Assembly: GCA_017439615.1 (NCBI GenBank)
Contig: JAFSIU010000014.1
Coordinates: 1-18,474, forward strand
Source of the DNA: Bacillota bacterium
GTDB taxonomy: Bacteria > Bacillota > Dehalobacteriia > UBA4068
Direction of reading: 5' to 3'
Length of the DNA stretch: 18,474 nt
The position numbers and the translations under genes were made by a program. Shown one piece after another: positions 1-9,524 of the stretch (its first letter is position 1; each line of letters starts with the position of its first letter). Under the pieces are notes generated by a model. It was not told the DNA's origin. It saw only the letters and a program-made list of their open reading frames with translations, and made no database searches.

Positions 1-363
1 TGTGACCATTTCAGTAACATAGGTCAAATCGCAATAATTATAGTGACGGACAAAATGATCTACGCCGCCATCTCCGCTCCATGGAACATCTATCGTCATA
101 ACAACTGGCGGACGATTGAACCAAGGATAATTGTTCAAATAAAAACCAGCATGATAAAATATCAAAAACAAACAAAGTGATGTTATGAAAAAAATAATAA
201 ATCCCCGAAGCAGATAAGTATCCCTGACAAGGAAAAAATCACGCCATCCGCCAATGAAACACATTCTGCTTCTTTGCGCCAGCATACCGATTATCAAACC
301 TGCCAGCAAGCTGACAAAACTTATCCTCGTGAAGCTAAGCGATGTAAAAAGGCTGCTGCCCAT
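1..363 (-). CDS. YeeE/YedE-family membrane protein, 3' end cut by window edge
   Basis: The reverse strand is open from an ATG at 363 to the window edge (121 codons, no stop), preceded by the RBS AAGGAG. The N-terminus has a hydrophobic segment at about residues 14-30. The stretch AQRSRMCFIGGWRDFFLVRD follows (about 31-50), then a second hydrophobic segment at about 57-80. The AQRSRxC...RDxxLxRDTYLL pattern is typical of the YeeE/YedE family, whose members include thiosulfate transporters and proteins linked to selenium metabolism. The conserved cysteine sits in that motif. The residues after about 85 (polar, with VDHFVRHYNYCD) are not a part of the family I recognise. The gene lies in line with the upstream aldehyde oxidoreductase operon but behind a strong hairpin terminator, so it may depend on readthrough or its own promoter. 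Substrate is unknown. Confidence 0.65.
   Translation of the reverse strand, partial: MGSSLFTSLSFTRISFVSLLAGLIIGMLAQRSRMCFIGGWRDFFLVRDTYLLRGFIIFFITSLCLFLIFYHAGFYLNNYPWFNRPPVVMTIDVPWSGDGGVDHFVRHYNYCDLTYVTEMVT
44..61 (+). repeat. 18-nt exact repeat, copy 1
   Basis: TGACGGACAAAATGATCT occurs here, inside the YeeE/YedE-type gene, and again unchanged at 3256-3273, upstream of the ferredoxin operon. Confidence 0.6.
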
Positions 364-396
364 AATTTACTCCTTGATAAAATGGTCTCAGGAGAC

Positions 397-436
397 AAAA
401 AAAGTTAAGACGGCGGCGGTAAGCCGCCGCCGTCTT
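397..436 (-). terminator. Rho-independent terminator after the oxidoreductase gene
   Basis: A perfect 13-bp GC-rich stem (arms 407-419 and 424-436, 4-nt loop) is followed on the minus strand by seven T (complement of A397-403). It lies 36 bp past the oxidoreductase stop and about 30 bp before the next start, so it should separate the two genes or attenuate the downstream one. Confidence 0.9.
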
Positions 437-472
437 GCAAGAACTTTTTAAGAAATCTCTTTCAAAGAAATC

Positions 473-2332
473 TTATTTAGGGAGATAAGGAATGAGGTCT
501 TCAAGACCGAGTTCCTGGAGCTTACCTTTGGTAGGAATACCGGTTTCGGGATCCCAACCCATTTCGGTGTAGTAGTTCTTTCTGGTTTCTTTGAACTTAT
601 CTTCGGGAAGGAGAGCACCCTTCTTGGGACCCCACTGATAGGGATCGTTGAAGGTTCTCCAGGGCAGAGTATCATCTTCTACGGTGAAACCTTCGCGGAG
701 GTTGAATACCTTTTCGATGTTACGTGCTCTGGAAGCGATGTAGTTCATCTGATCCAAAGTGTAGGAAGTACCCATGATGAAGTTGAGGATATCGGTTTCG
801 CCCTGTGCACCGTAAGCGGTGGAGAAGGAGCAGAATACACCCATGTCACGGATCATCATGTTGTTCATTGCAGCAGGGGTAACACCGTTGATGTGGCAAG
901 CGCCACGATGGCCAACTGCATAACCCATTTCCAAGCCGTTGTAACCGGTGGCAGCTTCCTGACCATGAACGTTGTGAGCTGCGAAGGAATGGTTCTTGGA
1001 GTCCATAGCATATTTAACAGAATCGGTCTTGCGTTCAGCGTCGATCTTCAATGCTGCATAGGTGGAACCACGACGGAACCAGTCATAGATAGGATTGGTG
1101 TGGTTGGAAACGAGAGCGTCCATGAATTTCATGATTTCAACGCCATTGCTCCATTCGAGCTTAATGCCGTCGATGTCTTTGGAGGTGATAACGCCGTTTT
1201 CATAAGCTTCGAGAGCATAACCGACGAGACCGCCAAGACCGATGAGGTCGAAGCCATAACCTTCGAGTTTTTCCATGATAGCTGCGAATTCGCCCATATC
1301 GTCGAGCAGCCAGTTTGCACCGTTCATTGCGGATTCATATTCAGGACCTTCAGCAATAGCACCGGCATGTTCACCCTGACGGATGACACCGATCTTCATG
1401 CATCTCCAGGGGCAACCATAGCAGGAGCGATGACGGATCCAGAATTCGGAGTGGATAACGCCGATACCGATCTTATCATCATAGGGGTTCATACCTTCTC
1501 TGTGGTTACGGCAGGAGGTAACGCTCATGTTGGATCTCTGAGTGAGACCGGAGCCTGTGCCCCAACGACGACGGACGTCAGCATTGGAGGAAGCCATGAT
1601 GGTGTTGTGATAGAATTTGATCTTGTCCAAGAGTTCTTCTTTGTTTGCTACGGGAACGGGCATAGTACCATTGACGATAACGCCTTTGAGCTTCTTGGAA
1701 GCCATAACAGCACCCGTGCCGCCACGACCGTTTGCACGACCGGTTTCGCTCATTACGCAAGCAAAGCGAACGCCGTTTTCAGCAGCGGGACCAACGCAGC
1801 AGTTTTTGTACATGGGGCCATATTCGTTCTGGATGGTTTCTTCGAATTCATGAGTGCTCATGCCCCAGTATTTGGAACCGTCGAGCAATTCAACTTCGCC
1901 ATTGTTGACATAGAGAACTTTGGGGGTTGCGGAAGCACCGGTAACATAGATGCCGTCGAAACCAGCCATTTTCAAGGTAGGACCGAATTTACCGCCGGCA
2001 GCAGACCAAGCAACGGTAGCACCGTTTTCGCCGTAAGGAGAGTTCTTAGCCTGAGTCATAGCAGATTTGCAGATGGTGTTGTAGCGGGAGCCGCCGCCAG
2101 GAATGGGGATACCGCCCAGAGGACCGGGGAGAATCATGAATACGTTTTCAGGACCCATGGGATCGATACCGGGTTTGTCCTTCAAAGCTTCCCAGAGAAG
2201 TTTGGAACCGAGAGCATGTCCGCCAATGTAATCGGAAACATACTGCATATGTCTATCAGTGATTTCGACTTTGCCTGTGGTCATATCGACTTCGATCAAT
2301 TTGCCCCAGTAGCCGCCAATTTGAGTTGTCAT
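473..2332 (-). CDS. Tungsten-type aldehyde:ferredoxin oxidoreductase family protein
   Basis: A 619-residue protein, the usual length for the aldehyde ferredoxin oxidoreductase (AOR) family, which oxidises aldehydes or related substrates with a tungsto-bispterin cofactor and passes electrons to ferredoxin. The N-terminal domain has the family opening (GGYWGKLIEVDMTTGKV), and RGGTGAVMASKKLK lies at about 203-216. The [4Fe-4S] ligands are visible as C304-x2-C307-x3-C311 plus C501 late in the protein. EGPEYES (about 328-334), a GFDLIGLGG segment and HRGACH (about 475-480) match cofactor-binding regions. There is no signal peptide. An AAAGGAGGT ribosome site precedes the ATG. It is 30 bp downstream of a Tat-signal ferredoxin gene and surely co-transcribed. 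The physiological substrate cannot be told from sequence; molybdenum instead of tungsten is possible. Confidence 0.93.
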   Translation of the reverse strand: MTTQIGGYWGKLIEVDMTTGKVEITDRHMQYVSDYIGGHALGSKLLWEALKDKPGIDPMGPENVFMILPGPLGGIPIPGGGSRYNTICKSAMTQAKNSPYGENGATVAWSAAGGKFGPTLKMAGFDGIYVTGASATPKVLYVNNGEVELLDGSKYWGMSTHEFEETIQNEYGPMYKNCCVGPAAENGVRFACVMSETGRANGRGGTGAVMASKKLKGVIVNGTMPVPVANKEELLDKIKFYHNTIMASSNADVRRRWGTGSGLTQRSNMSVTSCRNHREGMNPYDDKIGIGVIHSEFWIRHRSCYGCPWRCMKIGVIRQGEHAGAIAEGPEYESAMNGANWLLDDMGEFAAIMEKLEGYGFDLIGLGGLVGYALEAYENGVITSKDIDGIKLEWSNGVEIMKFMDALVSNHTNPIYDWFRRGSTYAALKIDAERKTDSVKYAMDSKNHSFAAHNVHGQEAATGYNGLEMGYAVGHRGACHINGVTPAAMNNMMIRDMGVFCSFSTAYGAQGETDILNFIMGTSYTLDQMNYIASRARNIEKVFNLREGFTVEDDTLPWRTFNDPYQWGPKKGALLPEDKFKETRKNYYTEMGWDPETGIPTKGKLQELGLEDLIPYLPK

Positions 2333-2362
2333 AATAAATTACCTCCTTTAATCCAATTCTGA

Positions 2363-3145
2363 TTACTTGCAGCCATAGAGCAAGTTCCAGACCTGCTGTG
2401 CAAGTTCTTTTTCGTTGAGTGCCCAGTACTGACCGGGGCAGCCGCCCTTGTGGTTGGAAAGTCTCAAGCAGTTTTCAGGGCAAGCGGTGACGCATTCGGG
2501 ATTGCCATCGCAAAGGTCGCACATACCAACAACGCCGAGTTCATCATGAGCGCGGAGGCAGCCGGTACGGCCTTTTCTGTCGCCCCAGCCATTACCGGTG
2601 GGATCCCAAACGGTAGTAGCGCAAGCTTCGATGCAGAGGCCGCAACCAGTGCACTTGTCATGGTCGATGAGGAGAGCGCCGGTAACTTCGTCCTTGGAGA
2701 TAGCCTGTACTTTGTCAGGGCAGGAAGCCATGCAGGGAGAGTCGGAGCAGTGCATGCAGAGGACCGGGATGTCAACCATACCGCCCTTGATGTCAATGCC
2801 GTAAACCTGGATGTTGGATTTGTTGAGATCCAATTCGCCATAGTGGGAGAGTGCGCAGTAAGCCATGCAGATGTTGCAGCCTACGCAATCCTGGTACTGA
2901 GGCATAATGAACATGGGAGAGGTAACCATGTTTTTGGTTTCGGTAGGAACGGTATCAGCGGGAACAGTTACGGTAACTTTTTCAGTAACGGTAACGGTCT
3001 TAACAGTGGTTTCACCGCAGCCTGCGAGAGCAAGAGCGCCACCTGCTACGAGAGCGCCTTTGAGGAAGCTACGACGGGACATATTAGCAAAAGGTAAAGC
3101 TTTGTTCTGAACGGTTTCCAGAACTTTATTGGACATATCAGTCAT
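2363..3145 (-). CDS. Tat-exported four-cluster ferredoxin (DmsB/HybA-like), predicted lipoprotein
   Basis: A 260-residue iron-sulfur electron-transfer subunit, probably the redox partner of the adjacent AOR-family enzyme. The N-terminus carries a twin-arginine motif SRRSFLKG (23-30), a hydrophobic stretch and a lipobox-like LAGC ending at C43, so export by Tat and lipid attachment are predicted. A Thr/Val-rich linker (about 46-70) follows. Sixteen cysteines then form four [4Fe-4S] sites: C87/C90/C93/C97, C130/C133/C138/C142, C165/C168/C171/C175 and C209/C212/C218/C222. This is the layout of DmsB/HybA/NrfC-type subunits. The ATG at 3145 follows a GGGGG ribosome site. The oddity is that this subunit appears exported while the catalytic subunit has no signal of its own; co-export as a folded pair is one explanation. 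Confidence 0.92.
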   Translation of the reverse strand: MTDMSNKVLETVQNKALPFANMSRRSFLKGALVAGGALALAGCGETTVKTVTVTEKVTVTVPADTVPTETKNMVTSPMFIMPQYQDCVGCNICMAYCALSHYGELDLNKSNIQVYGIDIKGGMVDIPVLCMHCSDSPCMASCPDKVQAISKDEVTGALLIDHDKCTGCGLCIEACATTVWDPTGNGWGDRKGRTGCLRAHDELGVVGMCDLCDGNPECVTACPENCLRLSNHKGGCPGQYWALNEKELAQQVWNLLYGCK

Positions 3146-6955: not shown

Positions 6956-6980
6956 TTAGTCATTATTGTTAATTGACTAA
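6956..6980. promoter_or_regulatory. Operator-like dyad over the -35 box of the tandem-gene operon
   Basis: Perfect inverted repeat TTAGTCA-N11-TGACTAA. Its right arm overlaps the -35 hexamer (6973-6978). A regulator bound here would be expected to block polymerase. The binding protein is unknown. Confidence 0.5.
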
Positions 6981-7001
6981 CTATTATTTTTCTGCTAAGA
7001 T
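6973..7001 (+). promoter_or_regulatory. Promoter of the Crp-like tandem operon
   Basis: TTGACT (6973-6978), 17-bp spacer, TAAGAT (6996-7001), near consensus. Transcription should start near 7008, about 27 nt before the first ATG, which has the strong ribosome site AAGGAGG. Confidence 0.8.
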
Positions 7002-7034: not shown

Positions 7035-7568
7035 ATGGAAAACTATCGTGACTTTTTACCCGAATTGAAAACCATCCCTCTGTTCTATGGTATCGAGGAT
7101 GATGCTTTGATCGCATTGCTCGAAGCTATGCAGCCCAAAATCATCCACAGAACCACCAACAATATGCCTCCCATGAGATTTGGCGAAGGCCTTTGGATGC
7201 TCGGCCTCAAGAACAATCTCAATGGCGAGATCGCTCCCAGAGAAAATCAATATGCTATGCCCAATTTCGGCGAACCCGGCGCAATGATGGGCGAAGTCCC
7301 CGGTATGTCCGAGGCATTCCTTTACAGAAAGAATATGCCCAAACCTGCTGCTCCTCCCAAGCCCGCAGGCCCTCCCAAAGAAGTTGATGATTATGTTCTG
7401 GAAATGAGCTCCGACATGATGACCAAATTCTACAGCGATGAGGTTTATCCCGCACAGGCACAGATGAACCGCAATATGCTCGGCATTATGGCTGAAAAGG
7501 TAACTCATATCCGCAAAATGAACCGCGCACAGATCGAAGAACTCCAGAATAAGCTTGCAGGTAAATAA
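7035..7568 (+). CDS. Degenerate Crp/cNMP-binding-like domain protein without HTH (paralog 1)
   Basis: A 177-residue cytoplasmic protein with no signal peptide or membrane segment. Residues 8-36 (LPELKTIPLFYGIEDD and the next helix) match the N-terminal helix of Crp-type effector domains. GEPGAMMGEVPGMS (79-92) resembles the GD-x-FGE-x-x-x-LS turn of the cNMP-binding barrel. Where the PR-T/S-A nucleotide-binding segment should follow, there is instead a proline-rich stretch (about 101-115). After a short strand comes a long charged helix (about 131-177), equivalent to the dimerisation helix. The protein ends there, so no DNA-binding domain exists. It is paralogous to the next two products and is the most diverged of the three. 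A role as a dimerising sensor or scaffold is inference; no function is known to me. Confidence 0.8.
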   Translation: MENYRDFLPELKTIPLFYGIEDDALIALLEAMQPKIIHRTTNNMPPMRFGEGLWMLGLKNNLNGEIAPRENQYAMPNFGEPGAMMGEVPGMSEAFLYRKNMPKPAAPPKPAGPPKEVDDYVLEMSSDMMTKFYSDEVYPAQAQMNRNMLGIMAEKVTHIRKMNRAQIEELQNKLAGK

Positions 7569-7595
7569 TCAACAGATTGCAGGAACTTTTATTTT

Positions 7596-7600
7596 GGAGG
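7596..7600 (+). promoter_or_regulatory. Ribosome binding site that sets the start of paralog 2
   Basis: GGAGG ends 1 nt before an ATG at 7602 but 7 nt before a second in-frame ATG at 7608. The second gives the same MENY opening and the same length as paralog 1. Confidence 0.8.
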
Positions 7601-7607
7601 AATGAAA

Positions 7608-8141
7608 ATGGAAAATTACCATCAGTATTTACCTTATTTCAAGCTCATGCCTCTCTTCCAGGGCATTGAGGATAATCAGATCATGGATCTGGTCGAGGCT
7701 ATGCAGCCCGCCATCTCCCGTCAGAGAAAAGGCGAGGCTCCGCCCAAGATCGATTTTACCGAAGGCTATTTCCAAGTCTGCATAAGACAGTATCCCGCAT
7801 TGGAAGTTGAAGCAAAGCCCAGCAAATATACTATGCCTAAGGTTGGCGAGCCCGGTATGATGATGGCAGAGATCCCCGCACTTTCCAAAGCAAAGCTGCC
7901 CAAGGATTTCTTTGCTCCCAAGCCCGGCCAGAAACCTATTCATCCGCCCCGTGATGTTGATGAAGATTGTCTTGTCATGACCGGCGAAATGGTAGTCAAA
8001 TTCTATTCCGCCGAGCTTTATCCCGCACAGGCAAAAATGATCAAAAACTTCTTCGGTATCCTCACTCAGAAGATCACCGATATCCGCGCCGCTCACAAAG
8101 CACAGGTTGAAGCACTGCAGGCGCAAATTGATGCGAAATAA
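7608..8141 (+). CDS. Degenerate Crp/cNMP-binding-like domain protein without HTH (paralog 2)
   Basis: A 177-residue paralog of the preceding product. It opens MENYHQYLPYFKLMPLFQGI (Crp-like N-terminal helix). GEPGMMMAEIPALS lies at 80-93, where a cNMP barrel has its FGE turn, then a lysine/proline-rich loop (about 96-115) takes the place of the nucleotide phosphate-binding segment. The strand DEDCLVMTGEMVVKF follows, then the C-terminal helix (about 137-177). No HTH domain, signal peptide or membrane segment is present. Residues 130-167 are identical to residues 133-170 of the next gene product, showing recent duplication or gene conversion. It starts 39 bp after paralog 1 and ends 18 bp before paralog 3, so the three form an operon. 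Function is unknown. Confidence 0.8.
   Translation: MENYHQYLPYFKLMPLFQGIEDNQIMDLVEAMQPAISRQRKGEAPPKIDFTEGYFQVCIRQYPALEVEAKPSKYTMPKVGEPGMMMAEIPALSKAKLPKDFFAPKPGQKPIHPPRDVDEDCLVMTGEMVVKFYSAELYPAQAKMIKNFFGILTQKITDIRAAHKAQVEALQAQIDAK
7995..8108 (+). repeat. Near-identical 114-bp segment shared with 8556-8669
   Basis: This segment encodes the C-terminal helix of paralog 2. By eye it differs from 8556-8669 at six positions, all synonymous, giving 38 identical residues. Confidence 0.85.
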
Positions 8142-8159
8142 ACATAAGGAGGAACAACA

Positions 8160-9470
8160 ATGAGCATTTATCAGAAATATTTGCCCCAATTGAAATTGAT
8201 GCCTCTCTTCCAGGGTATTGACGATAACTATATTCTGGACTTAGTAGAAGCAATGCAGCCCCAGATCGTTTTGAGAAAAACCGGTATGCCCAATCCTATG
8301 GAAGGCTTCACCGGCAGCGAATTCCTCGTATGCCTCAAAAACAATCTCAGCAATGAAGTTAAAGCAAAACCCAGCAAATACACTATGCCCGAAATGGGCG
8401 AACCCGGTATGATGATGGGCGAGATCCCCGGCCTTTCCCTTGCTCGTCAGCGTCCCGCTGAACCCAAGCCCGAAGGCGCCAAAAAGCCCCCCATGCCCCC
8501 CAGACCTCCCCAGCCTGTTGATCAGGAATGTCTGATCATGGATGGCGAAATGATCGTCAAATTCTATTCCGCTGAGCTTTATCCCGCACAGGCAAAAATG
8601 ATCAAAAACTTCTTCGGTATCCTCACCCAGAAGATCACCGATATCCGTGCTGCACATAAAGCACAGGTTGATTTGCTTAACAAGCAGATCGCAGGCGAAG
8701 TTCTTTATGTCAATACTGCCGGCTGCGTTATGAAGGTCGCAAATGAAACCGCTGCAAAATGGAACAAGCTCCATCCCGAGCTCCCCGCTATCGTTAAGGG
8801 CGGCGGCTCCGTTGATATCGTCCGCAATGCCTTGGCAGGCAAACCCTGCGATGTTATGATCGTTGCTGACGAAGCTAATATCGCTGATATGATGATGCCC
8901 GACCATGCTGACGGCTACTATGTATTCGCAGGCAACAAGATGGTTATCTCCGGCAAGGGCATCAACTCCGAAAACTGGAAAGAAAAATTGCTGGATCCCA
9001 ATGCTACCTTTATGCATATGAATCCTTATGGCGATCCCGGCGGCTATCGTGCTGTTATGGCTATGCTGCTTGCTGACAATGTAGAACCCGGTCTTGCTGA
9101 CAAGCTGATGAACCATCCCGGTCACATCGGCATGTCCAAAGAGCCTCCGAAGCCCGGTGCTCCCAGACCCAAGGCTGACTACAGCTTCGGCTACTATTCC
9201 GGCCCTGCTTCCAGCGGCGCTGAATTTGCTGAACTGCCTGCAGTTATGGACCTTTCCGATGACAATCTCGCTGATGTCTATGCAAAGGTTTCCTTCGCAG
9301 TTGATGATGAAAACACCATCGTTGCAAAACCCATCTCTCATGCGCTCACCATTCCTTTTGAAGCAAATCACAAGGAAGCTGCCCGTGAGTTCATCGATAT
9401 GTTCCTCGAAAACGATTTCGCAGCCCGCTGCTACCTGCCCAAGAGCAAGGTTGTCGGCAACTGGAAATAA
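8160..9470 (+). CDS. Crp-like domain fused to a WtpA/ModA-type oxyanion-binding domain
   Basis: A 436-residue two-domain protein. Residues 1-178 are a third copy of the HTH-less Crp-like module (LPQLKLMPLFQGIDD; GEPGMMMGEIPGLS 80-93; Pro-rich 99-119; C-terminal helix 138-177). Residues 180-436 resemble archaeal tungstate/molybdate-binding WtpA/ModA: GEVLYVNTAGC, HPELPAIVKGGGSVDIVRNAL, CDVMIVADEANI, FAGNKMVIS, INSENWKEKLLDP, NPYGDPGGYRA (288-298, D292 as the likely metal-oxyanion ligand) and ELPAVMDLSDDNLADVYAKV. No signal peptide exists, so the binding domain should be cytosolic, unlike ABC binding proteins. The serine of the family's AGS loop is C189, and the segment that should hold the second carboxylate ligand is replaced by a short Pro-rich loop (329-338). 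No permease or ATPase gene is nearby. A cytosolic tungstate/molybdate sensor or store is an inference. Confidence 0.82.
   Translation: MSIYQKYLPQLKLMPLFQGIDDNYILDLVEAMQPQIVLRKTGMPNPMEGFTGSEFLVCLKNNLSNEVKAKPSKYTMPEMGEPGMMMGEIPGLSLARQRPAEPKPEGAKKPPMPPRPPQPVDQECLIMDGEMIVKFYSAELYPAQAKMIKNFFGILTQKITDIRAAHKAQVDLLNKQIAGEVLYVNTAGCVMKVANETAAKWNKLHPELPAIVKGGGSVDIVRNALAGKPCDVMIVADEANIADMMMPDHADGYYVFAGNKMVISGKGINSENWKEKLLDPNATFMHMNPYGDPGGYRAVMAMLLADNVEPGLADKLMNHPGHIGMSKEPPKPGAPRPKADYSFGYYSGPASSGAEFAELPAVMDLSDDNLADVYAKVSFAVDDENTIVAKPISHALTIPFEANHKEAAREFIDMFLENDFAARCYLPKSKVVGNWK
8556..8669 (+). repeat. Near-identical 114-bp segment shared with 7995-8108
   Basis: Second copy, 561 bp downstream of the first and in the same reading frame, encoding the C-terminal helix of the Crp-like module in the fusion gene. 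Confidence 0.85.
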
Positions 9471-9493: not shown

Positions 9494-9524
9494 AAAAGAG
9501 CTGAGGTTTGACCTCAGCTCTTTT
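9494..9524. terminator. Bidirectional terminator between convergent genes
   Basis: A 14-bp stem (9494-9507 with 9511-9524, 3-nt loop) has T-rich sequence after it on both strands. It lies 24 bp past the fusion gene stop and 29 bp past the stop of the convergent AI-2E-family gene. Confidence 0.9.

Follow-up and report, generated by a model that had tools for sequence, protein, structure and literature searches.

The window analysed here, an 18,474-nucleotide stretch (contig JAFSIU010000014.1, assembly GCA_017439615.1) of a Bacillota bacterium, carries at 7035-9470 three tandem + strand open reading frames (ORFs) with Shine-Dalgarno-like sites, ORF1 to ORF3. Each encodes a module resembling the effector part of Crp/Fnr regulators, and ORF3 adds an oxyanion-binding domain of the WtpA type. 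Judged from the homologues recovered, these genes belong to an unnamed multi-phylum family, which an earlier note on this DNA had missed. Because relatives often share a cluster with an ATP-binding cassette (ABC) importer, the set likely captures tungsten or molybdenum inside the cell. We predict, tentatively and with somewhat less than even confidence, that the ORF3 product accepts and buffers tungstate or molybdate in the cytosol and is oligomerised by Crp-type modules without a helix-turn-helix (HTH).

A broader and more doubtful proposal is that, across several phyla, the family forms a system of cytosolic WtpA-type acceptors, linked to an importer and set on Crp barrels whose HTH has been lost (in other lineages, joined to a methyltransferase), that take over tungsten or another scarce metal on its entry, a non-TOBE form of intracellular tungsten handling. 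If true, this would be a structurally unrelated, importer-co-encoded class beside the TOBE storage proteins, and a directly testable one. It would also assign a function to proteins that, where named, carry only general transporter-type or hypothetical names ('substrate-binding domain-containing protein', 'hypothetical protein').

The Crp-type modules and the WtpA-type domain

The module is composed of N-terminal helices, barrel strands, a GE..LS segment and a long C-helix, with which the free module terminates. Its profile matches full-length Crp/Fnr regulators, the nearest being HcpR-like, and these regulators share all the features just listed. In contrast to them, the modules have a Pro-rich insert and fewer predicted strands than a full barrel, and none of 63 modules has a Pfam match to the cyclic nucleotide (cNMP) domain, the Pfam scan giving only weak scattered matches. 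Pfam also found no HTH or other DNA-binding model in ORF1-3, so they are not Crp/Fnr regulators. The predicted fold is a cNMP-type effector fold with a dimer helix. This agrees with the earlier note, which had described a Crp/cNMP-type domain with its dimerisation helix and no DNA-binding part, and which had named the lack of such a fold in the 177-residue modules as grounds against itself.

In a search of the window's own genome, ORF2 matched the N-terminal part of ORF3 at 66% and ORF1 at 43%; by this similarity the three modules are paralogues, as had been claimed for the three tandem genes. In the 30-codon windows over the C-helix, ORF2 and ORF3 are 94-96% identical in DNA and 97-100% in residues; the figure is 82-86% in the flanking windows and 49-77% in the remainder. 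Since the C-helix DNA is far more alike than the rest of the module, it points to recent gene conversion or to strong selection on the helix or a common interface. The start of ORF2 is placed at the ATG at 7608 because the GGAGG lies just 1 base from 7602, which makes the latter unlikely, and because the close homologue P0121 starts at the later Met.

The C-terminal domain of ORF3 has a predicted WtpA-type fold and matches PF13531 with 59.6 bits and TIGR03730, the WtpA equivalog model, with 123.8 bits, under the cut-off of 242.75. No export signal is recognisable at the N-terminus of ORF3, as the protein begins with the module; the earlier description of a WtpA-like domain without a signal peptide is borne out. 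By score, export and operon, ORF3 is not a WtpA equivalog. Residue conservation was counted over an alignment of 101 rows, in all of which D292 is kept. WtpA of P. furiosus has two carboxylate ligands, Asp160 and Glu218, according to PMC4139814. The Asp position corresponds to D292 in ORF3, and the Glu position to Ser326, in a rebuilt segment where the mapping is uncertain.

The family and its gene neighbourhoods

In total, 209 homologues of ORF3 were found. The 120 listed were sorted by script into 85 fusions and 35 others, a rough split with some full-length fusions among the 35. The module profile retrieved 75 proteins, mostly standalone modules, and the ORF2 protein as sole query gave 2 matches; a scan of viral contigs found no relatives. 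A genome scan yielded 22 family loci, which by their record titles come from Clostridia and other Bacillota, Dehalococcoidales, Atribacterota, a spirochaete, deltaproteobacteria and a Mangrovibacter, labels that may carry errors because the carriers are nearly all metagenome-assembled genomes (MAGs). In a phylum sample of 398 genomes, profile A3 matched 48; these matches were left out of the co-occurrence counts because only G000 and G008 are clear members (E below 1e-90), the rest being for the most part WtpA-like or Crp/Fnr-like proteins of other kinds.

Both module and WtpA domain are present in 15 of the 22 loci, either fused (L004-L014) or in adjacent genes (L016, L019, L020, L022). Eleven of these 15 (L005-L008, L010, L012, L013, L016, L019, L020, L022) have a FecCD/BtuC-type permease in their cluster; in L013, two genes separate it from the family gene. 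The importer's own binding-protein gene is found in 10 of the 11, the exception being L012, a 4.6 kb contig, and the module or fusion ORFs in permease loci start without a signal, as read by eye. The earlier note had held that no ABC genes are paired with these genes, which is true of the window and not of its homologues. It had also named homologues with both a signal and ABC genes as evidence against it; in these 11 loci the ABC genes are there, the signal is not seen.

The importer binding proteins resemble several PDB entries, including HI_1472 and, for L022, nickel/iron-binding proteins, and no subfamily could be assigned to them. In L020 and L022 the cluster is framed by a TonB-dependent receptor (by Pfam in L020) and ExbB/ExbD/TonB-like genes (ExbB/ExbD by eye). 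L009 has a binding protein alone before the contig end, and no importer gene was seen in the clusters of L004, L011 (3.6 kb contig) and L014. Among the remaining loci, L017 holds an importer together with WtpA and, as a separate gene, a methyltransferase; L021 has a WtpA-methyltransferase fusion beside a binding-protein-like gene; in L015 the family gene follows a ZnuA-type set; no importer was seen by eye in L018; and L023, L024 and L025 have a module without a full WtpA domain, L024 adjoining a MoeA-like gene.

In the window's own genome, which is 74% complete in 206 contigs, there are two FecCD permeases. The one on contig C117 is 52% identical to the linked permeases, and in the tree it falls in the sister clade (node support 0.999) of the one formed by L005-L008, L010 and L012, six of the 13 linked sequences. 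The C117 importer is a candidate partner of the window genes, with which it may function.

Variants of these arrangements were also observed. In the Mangrovibacter locus (L014 5083-11323) the genes ahead of the fusion look, by eye, like pstSCAB-phoU and not like a FecCD importer. In L021 2142-3791, L081 9617-11260 and L017 10019-11724, an S-adenosylmethionine (SAM) methyltransferase, fused or adjacent to a WtpA-like domain, takes the place of the Crp-type module. In L081, genes close by encode a TrsS-type radical SAM protein, which scores 513 bits (cut-off 490), and a methyltransferase of the DVU_1556-like kind, at 143 bits (cut-off 155). All 25 genomes give a match to the TrsS model at E up to 1e-3, with more than 340 bits in nine and above the cut-off in five. 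The TrsS protein was rejected as a constant partner: as far as the contigs show, only G007's among the stronger matches is near a family locus.

Association with tungsten and molybdenum genes

Members of the AFOR family often hold tungsten, and the window encodes one (Table 1). Its genome has four AFOR matches and, on the edge of contig C138, part of a TupA-like gene (127.7 bits, cut-off 400). Beyond the importer, the L016 contig carries a radical SAM gene whose best model is a tungsten-oxidoreductase maturase (260 bits, cut-off 380), a ThiS/MoaD-like gene, a ModE-like HTH (47.9 bits, cut-off 98.5), an AFOR, TupA-like (254.6 bits) and TupB-like (175.4 bits) genes, both under cut-off, and MoeA-PBP_like and MoeA genes.

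Among 24 carrier genomes (22 from the genome scan, G007 and G008), AFOR is present in 20 and MoeA in 22. In the phylum sample AFOR occurs in 218 of 398 genomes, with G008 in both sets (one-sided Fisher p 0.004, uncorrected for kinship, MAG completeness and differing phyla). Four of 25 genomes (window, G436, G433, G437) have an AFOR gene within about 17.5 kb of a family gene, against 1.04 expected (P 0.02), a rough Poisson count at a distance picked after the data were seen. Short contigs hide many neighbours. Because of the AFOR, Tup and MoeA company, a molybdenum or tungsten role is favoured for the family.

On the acceptor-buffer reading, the ORF3 product would catch tungstate (or molybdate) on cell entry and would likely pass the oxyanion to pyranopterin-cofactor assembly, buffering or handing over the metal and not signalling. 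The fused and free modules would probably just hold the subunits together, oligomerising via their C-helices, with ORF1 and ORF2 joining ORF3. The ligand would be tungstate or molybdate, and the importer encoded on C117 would be the partner.

Alternative explanations

A number of observations weigh against this reading. The three window genes lie apart from any importer, and neither reading the window's ORFs by eye nor a Pfam scan of eight of their products revealed ABC genes. No FecCD permease was found in the genome of G008, which has a lone WtpA-like member, so the importer is not obligatory for the lone WtpA-like form. FecCD-type importers usually carry chelates. Within 10 kb, AFOR is found in 2 of 25 genomes against 0.59 expected (P 0.12, not significant), and neither AFOR nor MoeA was found in G441, which has a WtpA-methyltransferase fusion and whose genome completeness is not known. 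At position 326, where 93 of 101 rows have an acidic residue (E/D), the window protein has Ser. H319, H322, M325, H394 and C230 form a family-specific set, almost constant here and lacking conservation among 27 other WtpA-like proteins; the ligand of ORF3 may therefore differ. Finally, N-termini that resemble signals, as judged by eye and hydrophobicity, occur in 7 of the 120 listed homologues (P0107, P0108, P0109, P0112, P0113 and two fusions, P0008 and P0013).

ORF3 could instead be a cytosolic oxyanion sensor, likely regulating the importer (trans-inhibition) or gene expression via another partner, with the Crp-type module relaying the bound state of the WtpA domain; we consider this rather unlikely. 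In its favour, TaoR-like regulators join an HTH to a PBP-like domain, according to PMC11980592. The modules resemble a sensor family, that of the HcpR-like Crp/Fnr proteins. Moreover, all 6 contexts of a separate signal-less WtpA-like group have a PadR-type gene directly before the group member (one by Pfam, five by eye), for which reason a sensor is nearly as attractive as an acceptor-buffer. It is opposed by the lack of a Pfam HTH in ORF1-3 and of a regulator gene adjoining them in the window (by eye), and we know of no contact between a family protein and the importer ATPase.

A changed ligand, likely a different metal ion or a chelated metal that the FecCD-type importer delivers (together with TonB receptors in some deltaproteobacteria), is unlikely. 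It stays in play because of Ser326 and the His/Met/Cys set: H286 and H394 are found in 101 of 101 rows, and H319, H322, M325 and C230 each in 99, and most of these are not conserved elsewhere among WtpA-like proteins. The FecCD-type importer, the TonB-receptor neighbours, the ZnuA-type neighbour in L015 and the gene content of G441 fit such a ligand as well. However, the invariant D292, the acid at 326 in most rows and the AFOR, MoeA and Tup company argue for an oxyanion, and a molybdate importer, MolBC-A, exists (PMC4031551). The earlier working model of a cytosolic sensor, buffer or chaperone for tungstate or molybdate is consistent with this gene company and with the signal-less WtpA-type domain, its ligand being putative.

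Export without a recognised signal, or with one in some lineages, which would make ORF3 an accessory binding protein outside the membrane, is very improbable: Crp-type modules elsewhere are cytosolic, and the window proteins and most listed members start directly with the module or the WtpA-type domain. The seven signal-like N-termini suggest that some lineages may export the WtpA-like domain, even the fusion, and P0045 has a different hydrophobic N-terminal extension.

Other WtpA-like genes deserve mention in their own right. Of 27 WtpA-like ORFs recovered, 12 (L062-L065, L067, L069, L070, L072, L074-L077) belong to a separate group whose members have no room for a signal. In the contexts L122-L127 of this group, the signal-less gene comes directly after the PadR-type gene (L123 by Pfam, the others by eye), and nearby permeases are of the chromate-transporter type (L125 by Pfam, L122 by eye) or the TauE type (L123 by Pfam; by eye in L124 and L127). 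The proteins of the group are possibly cytosolic oxyanion sensors.

Comparison with known systems

ORF3 resembles WtpA of the WtpABC system in the sequence and predicted fold of its C-terminal domain. It differs in having no signal peptide, no WtpBC alongside in the window, a TIGR03730 score under cut-off, Ser326, the family-specific His/Met/Cys residues and the fusion to a Crp-type module. MolBC-A is an ABC importer for molybdate and, like the importers found here, has a FecCD/BtuC-type build; we know of no cytosolic WtpA-Crp protein in the MolBC-A system. The TaoR-like regulators and the MoeA-PBP_like proteins also have a PBP-type domain inside the cell in molybdenum and tungsten biology. 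However, there the domain is joined to an HTH or to MoeA and not to a Crp-type module, and the MoeA fusions seen here carry PBP_like (PF12727), not SBP_bac_11.

The proposed job, intracellular tungstate/molybdate storage, is that of the Tub/Mop molbindins. In contrast to these TOBE proteins, ORF3 has a PBP-type domain, and no TOBE domain was detected (the Pfam scan, taken to E 1, did not return PF03459). The storage proteins given in PMC11980592 are TOBE proteins and, in some nitrogen fixers, a molybdenum store built like a cage. The terms 'FecCD', 'Crp', 'cyclic nucleotide' and 'substrate-binding' are all absent from the text of PMC13328260. Among titles and abstract beginnings, no paper was recognised as describing the combination of a Crp module and WtpA, which is no proof of absence; to this extent the earlier note, which knew of no described system like it, stands.

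Expression signals and other features of the window

Of the signals that had been proposed around the three genes, the single terminator is a strong stem after ORF3. The one promoter-like site is well placed, although the scan gave 6 such sites against 4.6 in shuffles, which makes it weak. The operator-like dyad was rejected: it exists as sequence, yet is not above chance, because 44% of 500 Markov-simulated 120-bp stretches carry at least one 7+7 dyad.

Table 1 Positions of the features described in the window.
Feature	Position	Strand	Remarks
ORF1	7035..7568	+	177 aa, Crp-type module without HTH
ORF2	7608..8141	+	177 aa, Crp-type module without HTH; start moved from 7602 to ATG 7608
ORF3	8160..9470	+	436 aa, module fused to WtpA-type domain, without signal peptide
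ORF3 module part	8160..8696	+	residues ~1-179; alignment and structure model
ORF3 WtpA-type oxyanion-binding domain	8700..9467	+	residues ~181-436; sequence profiles and predicted fold
Near-identical C-helix DNA of ORF2 and ORF3	7980-8125 and 8535-8680		30-codon window comparison
Promoter-like TTGACT-17-TAAGAT	6973..7001	+	motif scan; number of sites near chance
Dyad TTAGTCA-N11-TGACTAA	6956..6980	.	operator in the earlier note; real as sequence, chance-level
Intrinsic terminator stem	9494..9524	+	14 bp stem, -21.1 kcal/mol, z -6.0; scan reports it on the other strand too
AFOR-family oxidoreductase (context)	473..2332	-	PF01314 234 bits, PF02730 199 bits
Tat-signal 4Fe-4S protein adjoining AFOR (context)	2363..3145	-	TAT_signal 27.5 bits, Fer4 matches

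ORF1-3 are flanked by a radical SAM gene (Pfam) on one side and an AI-2E-type transporter gene (by eye) on the other. Three paralogous clusters of a Tat-signal ferredoxin, an AFOR and a YedE/YeeE-like membrane protein were observed within a single small genome, at 1-3145 of the window, L047 4958-8811 and L048 1-3941; in the latter two, the genes were read by eye except for AFOR. At L045 1-3926, a TupA-like gene at the contig edge has among its near neighbours the gene of a large lipoprotein that carries an Oxidored_molyb-type domain.
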